A stretch of 64,000 nucleotides of DNA from Verrucomicrobiia bacterium (lineage in GTDB: Bacteria; Verrucomicrobiota; Verrucomicrobiia; Verrucomicrobiales; DEV007): NCBI GenBank assembly GCA_030425385.1, contig JAUIAH010000019.1, forward strand, positions 62,001 to 126,000, given 5' to 3'. This document shows positions 1-4,307 of the stretch, one piece after another. Below the pieces are notes generated by a model. That model ran no database searches, was not told the origin of the DNA, and saw nothing but the letters and a program-made list of their open reading frames with translations. The translations under genes and the position numbers were made by a program. Positions within the stretch are counted from its first letter, which is position 1, and each line of letters begins with the position of its first letter.

Positions 1-107
1 CAAATCACGAATGACGAGAAAAGTAGCGCTCCCTGGGGTTTTTGATTGATCGTGGAGTTTACTCTCGCTACTTTCATAGCGTAGTGCCCCAAACCCCAAA
101 GGCTGCC

Positions 108-500
108 ATGGACGCGGATTTCCAGAAACATCTCTCTCGGCGACAACGCCAGATCCTCGATATTCTCTACGAAGTAGGAGAAGCCTCCGTGCTGGAGATC
201 CAGGAACGCCTTCCCAAGGCACCCACTCCCATGGCCATCCGCCGGATGTTGCAGATCCTTGAGGAGGACAAAGGCTTGGTGAAACGGCGCAAAGAGGGAC
301 GAAACTATCTCTACACCGCGCGTCCAGCCCGTTCCAAGACCGGTGCCAAGATGCTCAACCACGTCGTGAAAACCTTCTTCGACGGCTCCTTCTCCCGCGC
401 CTTCGCCGCCCACCTGGCGGATAAGAAATCCAAGTTGGATGTGGATGAGTATGAGCAGCTTATGAGCGCGATTGAGAGAGCGCGCGAAGAGGGACGGTAG
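108..500 (+). CDS. BlaI/MecI-family transcriptional repressor
   Basis: About 130 residues, the usual BlaI/MecI/CopY length. The N-terminal half is a winged helix: RRQRQILDILYEVG, then a recognition-helix region with TPMAIRRMLQILE, then a wing with basic residues (KRRKEGRNYLY). The C-terminal helices (FFDGSFSRAFAAHLAD and DVDEYEQLMSAIERA) match the family's dimerisation domain. I chose the ATG at 108 (MDADFQ) because the upstream in-frame extension to 42 lacks family character. Family members normally sit beside an M56-type sensor protease that cleaves them. No such partner follows here: the next gene is the exported FG-GAP/ASPIC protein, 78 bp downstream on the same strand, which makes that gene a possible target. 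Function as a DNA-binding repressor is well supported; the regulated genes are inference. Confidence 0.85.
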   Translation: MDADFQKHLSRRQRQILDILYEVGEASVLEIQERLPKAPTPMAIRRMLQILEEDKGLVKRRKEGRNYLYTARPARSKTGAKMLNHVVKTFFDGSFSRAFAAHLADKKSKLDVDEYEQLMSAIERAREEGR

Positions 501-578: not shown

Positions 579-3500
579 ATGCGTATGCTTTCCTTCCTGA
601 GCCTGATCGCCCTTCTGGGCGTCGCCGTGGCTGACGAGTTACCACCCGAAATCCCTGGAACCGGGGTGGCGACCCCGAAATATGATCCTAATCACGGGGG
701 CTGGGACAGTGAGCGCCTTGCTGAGGAAGCGAGTTTGCAACTCAACGTGTTGAAAGATGCTTTGGAAACGGGCTCCGCAGGGGCCTCTCTCGCAGCGATG
801 GTCAGCGAGGGATTTGCGGGCGAGGCTCTCCGGCCTTTAACCGTCTCCGTCTTTGAAGACGCTGTCGTCGACGTTCGCCGAGCGAGCGGCGGCAAGAGCG
901 TCCGCTTTGAAGGGAAAGATGGTTGGGTGAAGGCTGTCCAGACGCTCACCGATCCTCTCCAGGCTGGACAACTGCATGCGAAGTTCAAGACGATCGGTGT
1001 CGATGTGGAGAACGACGGTGCGCAGCTGCGCTTTGAGATCCGCTTGGATGGGCAATCGAAAGATGGCAAGCGACTACAAGTGAACGCCCAATGGGCCACG
1101 AGGTGGCAACGTGAGGGTGAACAATTGGAGATGACGCGCTTCGAAATCACCGACTACGAAGAAATCCTCACGAAGCGGCCCCATCCCCAACCGCTCTTTG
1201 CTGATGCTACCGGAGCCTCACTCGGACAGGACCCGGCGTTTCAGCAGCAGTTGGCGTACGGAATCGACCACTGGTTGGCGCGGCTCGACACACGCACAGG
1301 CATCAAGGTGGGCGGATGGAATGGCTTGGCGATTGGCGATGCCAATGGTGATGGCATCGAAGATTTGTATGTGTGTCAGAATGGTGGATTACCAAACCGT
1401 CTCTTTCTGGGTCGCGCCGACGGAACGGCAGGGGATGTGGCCGCGGCGGCAGGCGTGGATTGGTTGGAAACGAGTCGTGGCGCCTTGTGGATCGACCTCG
1501 ACAATGATGGCGATCAGGATCTGATCGTGGCGGTTTCGGAAGGCTTGCTGGTGCATGAGAATGACGGAGGCGGGCGATTCCAAGTCCGCTCTGCCGAGGT
1601 CCTGCCTTTCGCTGTGCCCTATTCACTCGCTGCTGCAGACTATGATCAGGATGGCGATCTGGATATCTTTGCCGCATGCTATGACCGCCGTGGTCATGTG
1701 GATCGCAATATTTCCCTGGCGCGTCCGGTGCCCTATCATGATGCCAACAATGGGGGACGCAATGCTCTCTTGCGCAATGAAGGCGGGTTCCGTTTCTCCC
1801 ATCAGACCAAACGCGTGGGGCTGGATGAGCACAACACGCGCTACAGCTACGCCGCGGCCTGGGCAGACTACGATCGCGATGGCGATCTCGATCTCTACGT
1901 TGCGAATGACTTTGGCCGCAACAACCTCTATCGGCAAGAACGTCAGGGTGACCGTATCCGCTTTGTGGATGTGGCCGAAGAAATGGGCGTGTTAGACATC
2001 GCGGCAGGCATGTCGGCGGCTTGGGGCGATTATGACAATGATGGGCTCCTCGATCTCTATGTGAGCAACATGTTCTCCTCGGCAGGCAATCGCATTGTGA
2101 CCCAAGGCCAGTTTCTTGCCAATGAAGACAAAGCCACGCGGGCGCTCTTTCTCCGGCATGCGCGAGGCAATAGCCTCTTCCGCAACACGGGATCTGGATT
2201 TGACGATGTTAGTATTGATGCAGCGGTGACCCAGGGGCGTTGGGCATGGGGCTCTGCCTTTGCCGATCTCAACAACGATGGCTGGCAGGACCTCGTCGTG
2301 GCTAATGGCTTTATCACGCAAGCAGACACGGGCGATTTGTGAGGCTTCTACTGGCGACAGGTCGTGTCGCAGTCCCCTACCAAAGAGACCAATTCACCAG
2401 GCGAGACCTATTTGGATGCTTGGCAAGATCTCGCCACCCGCATCCGCCACGGCAACTCCTTCAGTGGGCGCGAACCCAATAGCGCTTTCCTTAACACCCG
2501 TGGCCAACGATTCGCGGACATTTCCTTGATGGCTGGTCTCGGATGGAAGGACGATGGGCGCGGCCTCGCCTGGACGGATTGGGATCGCGATGGCGACTTG
2601 GATCTTTGGATCAGCAATCGGACCGCACCCCGTGTGCGCTTCTTGCGCAATGATTATGAGGCAAGCCCATCTTCCGCCATGCTCAGACTGGAGGGTGATC
2701 CGGCTCGACGATGCCCTCGAGATGCCATCGGTGCCGTGGTGACCATGACCCTCACCAATGGACAACGACTGGTTCGCCACCTGAGTGCGGGCGAAGGATT
2801 CCTCAGCCAATCGAGCAAATGGCTCCACTTTGGCCTCGGGGAAACCTCCTCCATCCGGCAAGTCGCCGTGCGCTGGCCGGGCACGGAAACGGAAGAAGTG
2901 TTTCAAGGCGTCTCCGCGGGGCGTTGGCATCTCCGTCAGGGTTCTGGCAAGGCTGTGCGGGACAAGAACAAGAGCGCCACGCTTCCCAAGGGTTCCTGGG
3001 AGGAGCCATCTACCGAGAGCAACGCCCATGTCATCCTCACCGATCCCCGCGATGCCCCCACCCTGCGTTACCGAGGATGGGATGGGAAAGAACGTACCCT
3101 GAACACCCAATCCCCCACCCTCACCGTTCTCTGGGCGTCATGGTGTCAACCCTGCCTCCGTGAACTCGCCGCGCTAACAAAAGCACGCGCACAATTGGAG
3201 AAAGCAGGCCTCCAGGTGATCGCTTTGAACATGGAAGAAGCGCAGGCCTCCCTCACAGGGGATGCCGCTCCCGACTTACGAGCCATTCAGAAAACGCTTA
3301 GTGGACTTCGATGGCCCTTCGCATCGGGGCGCGCCAGCACCTCCCTGGTGGAAGACTTGGATGGTGCTCAGCAAGCCATTCTCTATCGGCAAGAACCTCT
3401 TCCACTTCCTAGCAGTTTCCTCTGGCACCGTGGTCAACTCTTCAGTTTCGCCAAGGGCGAAATCAGCGTGGCCGCCCTCCTTCGCGAAACCAAACGCGTC

Positions 3501-4307
3501 ACCCAAACACCCACCGCGCATCCCGATCACGCGGTGCCCTTGCCCGGCCGATGGTCCACGCAGCATTTCATCACGAACCCCATCGCCATCGCGAACGTTT
3601 ATCTCGAGGGCGGCTACACGGAGGACGCTCGCCAGTATTTGGAGGATAGCTTGGCAAAGCTCGACCGCGTCTCTGATCCTCAGATCAAGCGCATGCAAGA
3701 GGCGGACATCGCGCACATGTTAGGCGAAACCTATCGTTTGGAAAACGCCCCTCCCAAGACCGCGCTCCCTCACTATCAAAGAGCGCTCCAGTTAAATCCC
3801 ACCCACCCCGCCGCAGCCCTTTCCTACGCGCGAGCCCTCGCCGCCCTGAAGCGCTCGAAGGAAGCCATCCCAGTCCTCGAACGCGTGCTCAAGCAGTTTC
3901 CCAAGCGACACGACATCGCCGTTCAGTTAGGCAATCTTCACCAGGCCCTCGGTCAAGACACCAAGGCCATCGCCCAATATCACGCCGCGCTCGACGCCGA
4001 ACCAAGCGACTTTGAGGCTCTCAACCAACTCTGTTGGATACACGCCACCAGCGCTCAACAAGCCGCCCGCAACCCTCGTCAAGCCATGACATTGGCACAA
4101 ACGATCGCCCAGCGCTATGGCAACAACGCCCACGCCCTCGACACCGTCGCCGCGGCGCTTGCCGCGGCAGGGCAGTGGGAACGCGCCACGCAAACGGCTC
4201 AACGCGCCCTCGCATTAGCCCAACAACGCCGCGATCCTCGACTCGTGCGCGACCTGCAAGCACGCCTCAAACTCTATCAGAGTCGCAAACCTTTCACGCG
4301 GCGCTAG
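579..4307 (+). CDS. Candidate selenoprotein: exported FG-GAP (CRTAC1-like)/ASPIC-UnbV/TlpA-like/TPR protein with in-frame UGA
   Basis: One reading frame of 1243 codons with a single internal TGA at 2340-2342 (residue 588), read here as selenocysteine. Order: signal peptide (about 1-18); an unannotated alpha/beta region (about 20-210); a series of FG-GAP/VCBS repeats with Ca-binding-like DxDxDGxxD loops (DANGDGIED, DLDNDGDQD, DYDQDGDLD, DYDRDGDLD, DYDNDGLLD, DLNNDGWQD); the UGA in context ADTGDL-U-GFYWRQVV; another FG-GAP repeat (DWDRDGDLD); an ASPIC/UnbV domain (about 700-790); a TlpA/thioredoxin-like domain with WCQPC (C856, C859); and TPR repeats to the end. ASPIC/UnbV domains typically follow FG-GAP repeats in one exported chain, so the two halves belong together. 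The downstream half has no signal peptide of its own and at best a weak ribosome site before GTG 2364. A hairpin just after the UGA resembles a bacterial SECIS. Alternatives are a nonsense mutation or a true stop with restart. The biochemical role is unknown; redox chemistry is inferred from Sec and CQPC. Confidence 0.82.
2350..2373 (+). promoter_or_regulatory. Candidate bacterial SECIS hairpin for the UGA at 2340-2342
   Basis: Starting 8 nt after the UGA, the RNA can form a stem of three pairs (A2350-T2373, C2351-G2372, T2352-A2371), one bulged G (2353), then five consecutive pairs (GCGAC 2354-2358 with GTCGC 2366-2370). The loop AGGUCGU (2359-2365) contains GGUC at +18 to +21 from the UGA. 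In the E. coli fdhF bSECIS the loop AGGUCU starts 18 nt after the UGA, and its G and U contact SelB. The match in distance, loop sequence and bulged upper stem is seen directly; SelB binding is inference. Confidence 0.75.

Follow-up and report, generated by a model that had tools for sequence, protein, structure and literature searches.

The gene at 579-4307, on the forward strand of a 64,000-nucleotide stretch of Verrucomicrobiia DNA (the window; contig JAUIAH010000019.1), is strongly supported by comparison with its relatives as the gene of a selenoprotein, and one whose family appears to be new. It joins an FG-GAP/CRTAC1-like beta-propeller, in which selenocysteine (Sec) is encoded by a single in-frame UGA, to an ASPIC/UnbV domain, a TlpA-type thioredoxin domain and TPR repeats. 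The explanation that we consider likely as a whole is that this is a probably exported protein in which Sec588 is redox-active within the propeller and is reduced again by the CxxC of the attached TlpA domain.

A preliminary description, made from the letters of the window alone, had read two adjacent frames as one gene split by a single TGA at 2340-2342, and re-reading bears this out. The first open reading frame (ORF; 579-2342, 587 amino acids, ending with the TGA) continues in the same frame to a TAG ending at 4307, the TGA is the sole interruption, and the read-through product is 1242 residues long with Sec at 588 (self-match 100%, one TGA inside). The domains that had been named are recovered by Pfam on the read-through protein, with FG-GAP at 132.6 bits against a cut-off of 26.9, UnbV_ASPIC (PF07593) at 58.3 bits against 23.4, and AhpC-TSA, which carries a WCQPC motif, followed by the TPRs. 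The N-terminal domain is weakly typed (DUF4440, 20.6 bits, below the cut-off of 25.2), and 19 models of NCBIfam release 20.0, for the most part TPR and thioredoxin models, matched the protein, none of them reaching its cut-off. The propeller has many conserved Asp columns and abundant acidic loops of the DxDxDG type.

The host assembly (8.0 Mb, 74 contigs) contains nine such genes, the window's included, each found in a search with the read-through protein and each with exactly one TGA inside the match. The TGA of all nine lies at the same aligned place, D-L-U-[SGM]-x-x-W-R, where the column is invariant, and three more host relatives have TGC, TGT and GAT at the Sec column (L018, L019 and L023). 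The machinery expected for decoding is also present in the genome, as selA (490.6 bits), selB (283.4 bits) and tRNA-Sec (65.1 bits) are all over their cut-offs, and ARAGORN calls a tRNA-SeC with anticodon tca. Of 14 control genomes, 1 passes the cut-off for selA, 2 that for selB and 5 that for tRNA-Sec, thus the tRNA score alone is no proof. When 28 other genomes with UGA members are compared with 21 control genomes, selB is over cut-off in 26 of the former and 9 of the latter (p 2e-4), and tRNA-Sec of at least 53 bits, a weaker discriminator, in 22 and 11 (p 0.07); the 21 controls are the sources of other FG-GAP hits, a non-random set in which at least three genomes (G416, G422, G430) do hold UGA members. 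The two genomes with UGA members that fall below the selB cut-off are G400, with a tRNA-Sec of 69.1 bits, and G403, with a partial selB of 145.8 bits.

Homologues elsewhere read through the same position, which the preliminary description had named as support. A scan of one genome per species (84,980 species), from which the best 80 loci were taken, turned up records titled Verrucomicrobia, Planctomycetota and Acidobacteria with UGA at the aligned column. Loci were aligned to a profile of the nine host genes and sites that differed within 300 bases were kept, giving 154 rows, of which 141 reach at least 200 bits and have at the column U in 101, C in 8, E in 7, A in 6, D in 4, Q, I, N and R in 3 each, and S, G and M in 1 each; these are counts of fetched loci, with rows lacking TGA picked on purpose, and so are not frequencies. 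Among the close relatives (at least 340 bits) there are 98 rows with UGA and 22 with E, A, Q, N, R, D or S.

The 141 rows were also placed on a quick tree that excluded the site, with 41 of its 138 inner branches unresolved. The UGA label changes 8 times on this tree, compared with a mean of 35.1 in shuffles. The eight Cys rows fall in one well supported group together with three Asp and two UGA rows (L064, L106), in which D-Y-U-T-H-F-W stands beside D-H-C-T-H-F-W. Cys and UGA, which had likewise been named as support, thus both occur in homologues, the Cys being confined to a related, more distant clade. Fourteen Glu, Ala and Gln rows form one group nested inside UGA rows.

A hairpin directly after the UGA had also been pointed out, and it is present: a 5' arm GCGACA (2354-2359) and a 3' arm UGUCGC (2365-2370) make six pairs around the loop GGUCG (2360-2364), with GGUC beginning 17 nt past the UGA. 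The loops of bacterial selenocysteine insertion sequences (SECIS) are typically GGU-like. Rfam gave no match in the window between 2200 and 2600. Across the nine host genes three of the six stem pairs are changed on both sides. All six pairs can form in 80 of the 98 UGA rows, where 3.1 would be expected with the protein held fixed and synonymous codons redrawn, and in none of the 22 close non-UGA relatives (0.4 expected), where S-[FY]-F-W-R is still found in 14; GGUC at +17 is found in 76 of the 98 versus 1 of the 22. The first set of loci gave the same picture, with all six pairs in 31 of 46 UGA loci (1.4 expected) and in 0 of 30 without UGA. The covariation score, calculated on 44 of 46 rows with two L059 UGA rows (GGUC at +20) left out, is 0.271 versus 0.148 in shuffles, none of 500 being as high, although kinship of the rows may inflate it, and in the same 44 rows 83.3% of stem cells pair in place compared with at most 66.3% after sliding. 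A covariance model of the hairpin region, run over the whole host genome, finds the nine family genes at E <=5.6e-6 and its next match at 0.059, the nine having been among the rows from which the model was built.

The Sec of this family also appears to be linked to the dithiol of the TlpA domain, which was scored on an alignment to a profile of the family's own TlpA domains. This domain could be aligned in 90 of the 101 UGA rows (in L121 it sits further downstream than in the others) and both cysteines are found in 88 of them, the remaining two being L037, which is cut before the cysteines, and L064. The eleven UGA rows that did not align are seven short ones, three that are cut by the end of the locus, and L241, which is cut by a second TGA. 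By comparison, 17 non-Sec rows align (L166, L167, L171, L172 and L223-L235) and only one of these, L232, has both cysteines, with other residues in 13 and a deletion in 3, so that 16 of 17 keep a thioredoxin-type domain without its CxxC and are apparently non-redox forms. The Asn and Arg rows end before any TlpA domain could start. Fisher's test gives p 2e-14 for Sec versus CxxC, on rows that are not independent. The joint loss suggests that Sec works together with the attached dithiol.

A structural model predicted for residues 20-1000 has a mean predicted local distance difference test (pLDDT) score of 92.6 and a predicted template modelling (pTM) score of 0.94, and the closest known structure is murine CRTAC1 (PDB 9etn; Foldseek E 5.9e-26), with a Z of 36.9 and a root-mean-square deviation of 2.3 over 455 residues, the model aligning from 184 to 770, that is, over propeller and ASPIC domain. 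Within this model the Sec588 helix is inserted late in the CRTAC1-like propeller, Sec588 (model 569) being the second residue of a predicted helix at 568-579; in the Cys relative L090 (overall pLDDT 88.0) the Cys, at model 591, likewise starts a helix, 591-597. A thiol or selenol at the start of a helix is typical of redox-active sites.

On this basis a mechanism can be proposed. SelB, tRNA-Sec and the GGUC hairpin would decode UGA 2340-2342 as selenocysteine, the ribosome would then go on to translate the remainder of the propeller and, after it, the ASPIC, TlpA and TPR parts, and Sec588 would be the redox-active residue that attacks, or is oxidised by, a substrate outside the cytoplasm. The CxxC of the TlpA domain would reduce Sec588 again, so that a selenol/dithiol relay would be contained in one chain.

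A number of observations weigh against this explanation. Taken by itself the hairpin is unremarkable, as the 71-nt stretch is not unusual in folding energy (z -0.22; 77 of 200 shuffles fold as well), therefore its significance comes only from the comparison across genes. Within that comparison, pairs changed on both sides are not above shuffles (3 versus 2.0; 98 of 500), and energy is only mildly lower than after synonymous recoding (mean z -1.2; <=5% in 9 of 46 rows). If the stem is free to sit anywhere near the site it is reached by a median of 22% of recodings (mean longest 6.4 versus 4.0), and the separation of UGA from non-UGA rows comes from the fixed-place count of six pairs and less from the energy or free-place measures. 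At the site itself confidence in the models is locally lower (block means 84 for Sec588 and 77 for L090), and there is no Cys among the 22 close non-Sec relatives, so that exchange of Cys and Sec is seen only with the more distant clade. The link between Sec and the CxxC in turn has few independent events behind it, a tree-pair test on an earlier, pattern-based CxxC count giving 8 pairs with a mean of 5.2 in the same direction, none opposite, and a median p of 0.0625. Furthermore, L232 (Ser at the Sec column) keeps its CxxC without Sec, L064 (site 4018) combines UGA with Ser-Ser at the CxxC columns, and the seven short UGA rows, having no TlpA domain, would depend on an outside reductant. The sister of L064 in the same genome, L106, differs at the CxxC columns.

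The alternative that survives best is that Sec588 is a metal ligand or a structural selenolate, with the TlpA domain keeping the Sec free or serving another cysteine. Of the residues found at the column Cys, Asp, Glu, Gln and Asn are possible ligands, the conserved Asp columns of the propeller would suit such a role, and a similar propeller is found in aldos-2-ulose dehydratase (Z 20.6-20.8), of which one entry is titled as having its active-site metal depleted. However, Ala, Arg and Ser also occur at the column, and the loss of the CxxC along with Sec in 16 of the 17 non-Sec rows that keep a TlpA domain is better accounted for by a redox role; this alternative is unlikely. It is far less probable that the UGA is a selenium-dependent switch, acting mainly as a stop that yields a truncated protein and read through only when selenium is ample; the UGAs of selenoproteins do compete with termination, but here the stop would fall inside the propeller, and the model of the joined protein is a confident one. 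That the UGA is read as some other amino acid, by a reassigned code or unspecific read-through, is hardly credible, for whilst any of these readings would leave the frame open, TGA serves as a normal stop in the window, where it ends 17 of 49 genes (simple gene caller, the split selenoprotein gene counted), and six of the nine host family members also use it as their terminal stop, besides which the hairpin is tied to UGA and the genome has selA, selB and tRNA-Sec. A pair of separate genes, or a pseudogene broken by a point mutation, is what mechanical ORF calling with its two ORFs might suggest, and can be dismissed, since 101 distinct rows, spread over many genomes, share this UGA and the hairpin is conserved. 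The observations that the preliminary description had listed as fatal to a selenoprotein (homologues consistently ending or splitting at this position, none with Cys or UGA, a genome without the Sec genes) were none of them made.

The family is far larger than the window alone showed. In a sample of the host phylum 6 of 387 genomes match at E <=1e-60, G000 and G349 with TGA and four without, and the phylum of G389 (by its title a Planctomycetaceae record) has 107 such genomes in a sample of 392, with one TGA in most rows among the matches listed; usually three candidates were scored per genome in both surveys, so members can have been missed. A deeper search matched 36 of 38 genomes at E <=1e-45, reaching 31 matches in G400 and 21 in both G387 and G393, and among the matches listed TGA is found in all rows but four, one of them having a TAA as well. 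At least 21 rows of G400 have one TGA, some of these being contig-end fragments and strain variants being possible. On the tree the window copy groups with copies from genomes of the other phylum (G499, G774, G402, G581), which suggests that the family has moved between phyla by transfer. Plasmid records gave 42 matches, all below 60% identity.

Some individual loci are worth recording. L242 (G542:C1:9487000-9495000) has two UGA copies in tandem close to the end of a 9.5-Mb contig, hence fragmented assemblies are not the only ones in which the family occurs, and in L182 (G391:C35) two family genes lie on one strand, head to tail. L241 (G455:C78) has a matched frame with three TGA, of which the second follows the Sec site by about 20 codons, and may be a pseudogene, an error or a protein with several Sec.

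Table 1. Features of the selenoprotein gene and its upstream neighbour, in window coordinates
Feature	Position	Strand	Basis
BlaI/MecI-type repressor, possible regulator	42..500	+	Penicillinase_R 69.6 bits; ends 78 bases before the selenoprotein gene
Complete selenoprotein gene (1242 residues) with a single in-frame UGA	579..4307	+	ORF reading, Pfam, self-match
Probable export signal, residues 1-19	579..635	+	Hydrophobic N-terminus in sequence
FG-GAP/CRTAC1-like beta-propeller, about residues 203-699	1185..2675	+	Pfam; model alignment to murine CRTAC1
UGA codon, selenocysteine 588, N-terminus of predicted helix	2340..2342	+	Family alignments, model
SECIS-like hairpin, 6-bp stem, loop GGUCG, GGUC 17 nt after UGA	2354..2370	+	Cross-gene comparison
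ASPIC/UnbV domain, residues 716-781	2724..2921	+	Pfam PF07593, 58.3 bits
TlpA/ResA-type thioredoxin domain, residues 826-913 (AhpC-TSA range; structural matches reach further)	3054..3317	+	Pfam, structures
CxxC Cys856-Gln-Pro-Cys859, proposed Sec588 reductant	3144..3155	+	Sequence, family alignment
TPR repeats, about residues 1059-1143	3753..4007	+	Pfam

The repressor gene upstream may regulate the selenoprotein gene, and BlaI and M56 genes are also found near the paralogue L017. Another paralogue, L015 (L139 3874-6642), has FUR-family regulator and peroxidase genes upstream, with a single ORF of the opposite strand in between, which hints at a link to peroxide. Giant LamG/TSP3-type proteins adjoin five of the nine host copies (L135, L136, L138, L139, L141), for which a rough p is 2e-5 if 140 domain matches are taken as genes and 6500 genes are assumed; such adjacency is scarce outside the host genome, so no conclusion is built on LamG. 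There was no constant operon partner across genomes in the 98 of 102 neighbours scanned (the four longest were left out, one a LamG protein), in which LamG_3 was found in 8, TSP3 in 4, and DUF1501, LTD and UnbV in 3 each. In some lineages, according to the accessible part of PMC12758564, an FG-GAP protein gene annotated as CRTAC1 family adjoins hydrazine-synthase-like genes.

Taken further, these proteins may form a class of extracytoplasmic selenoenzymes that have a calcium-type propeller as scaffold and a thioredoxin-type reductant joined to it covalently. Such a class would tend to lose Sec outright and not to replace it with Cys, and its copies in some planctomycetes and verrucomicrobia would number in the tens, each perhaps for a different secreted partner; we put the chances of this wider view at about even. 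If it is true these phyla would be among the most selenoprotein-rich of bacteria, with ordinary gene calling showing truncated halves only and many exported proteins of abundant environmental bacteria split at what is a sense codon. It would also tie selenium to the poorly understood bacterial CRTAC1/ASPIC proteins and give that family a testable active residue, and the natural Sec-less relatives, together with the built-in reductant, would offer a means to ask why selenium is used. The family thus may point to a selenium chemistry that has gone unrecognised and that takes place outside the cytoplasm in common environmental bacteria.

Comparison with known systems supports the proposal, made in the preliminary description, of a new selenoprotein family. 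Table 1 of the 2026 inventory PMC13188914 has 119 bacterial selenoprotein families and subfamilies with no FG-GAP, ASPIC/UnbV or CRTAC1 family among them, and its main text is without the words FG-GAP, CRTAC, Verrucomicrob-, Planctomyc- and Acidobacter-. The nine new families given in the accessible part of PMC12013277 (deep-Sep), where the largest selenogenome has at least 46 selenoprotein genes, include none of the FG-GAP/ASPIC kind, and PMC4807772, on selenoproteins in two planctomycetes, does not use FG-GAP, ASPIC or CRTAC in its main text. Literature searches, with most subscription journals and preprints outside their coverage, found no FG-GAP/ASPIC selenoprotein family among the papers listed.

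With CRTAC1 the protein shares the ASPIC domain and a sequence match (E 8e-37), but this match breaks off at profile position 493 and is taken up again at 649, skipping the Sec-bearing stretch, and the matched CRTAC1 chain (586 residues) has no match to the TlpA or TPR parts. The C-terminal domain resembles the TlpA/ResA thiol-disulfide oxidoreductases in its fold and its CxxC, but it is fused behind a Sec-bearing propeller and the Sec lies outside the thioredoxin motif, whereas the TlpA entry in the inventory table of PMC13188914 has the Sec motif UGC. The in-frame UGA, the hairpin downstream and SelA, SelB and tRNA-Sec are those of known bacterial selenoproteins, and within the literature covered this is a new selenoprotein family in which known decoding is combined with an unreported scaffold and an unusual built-in partner.

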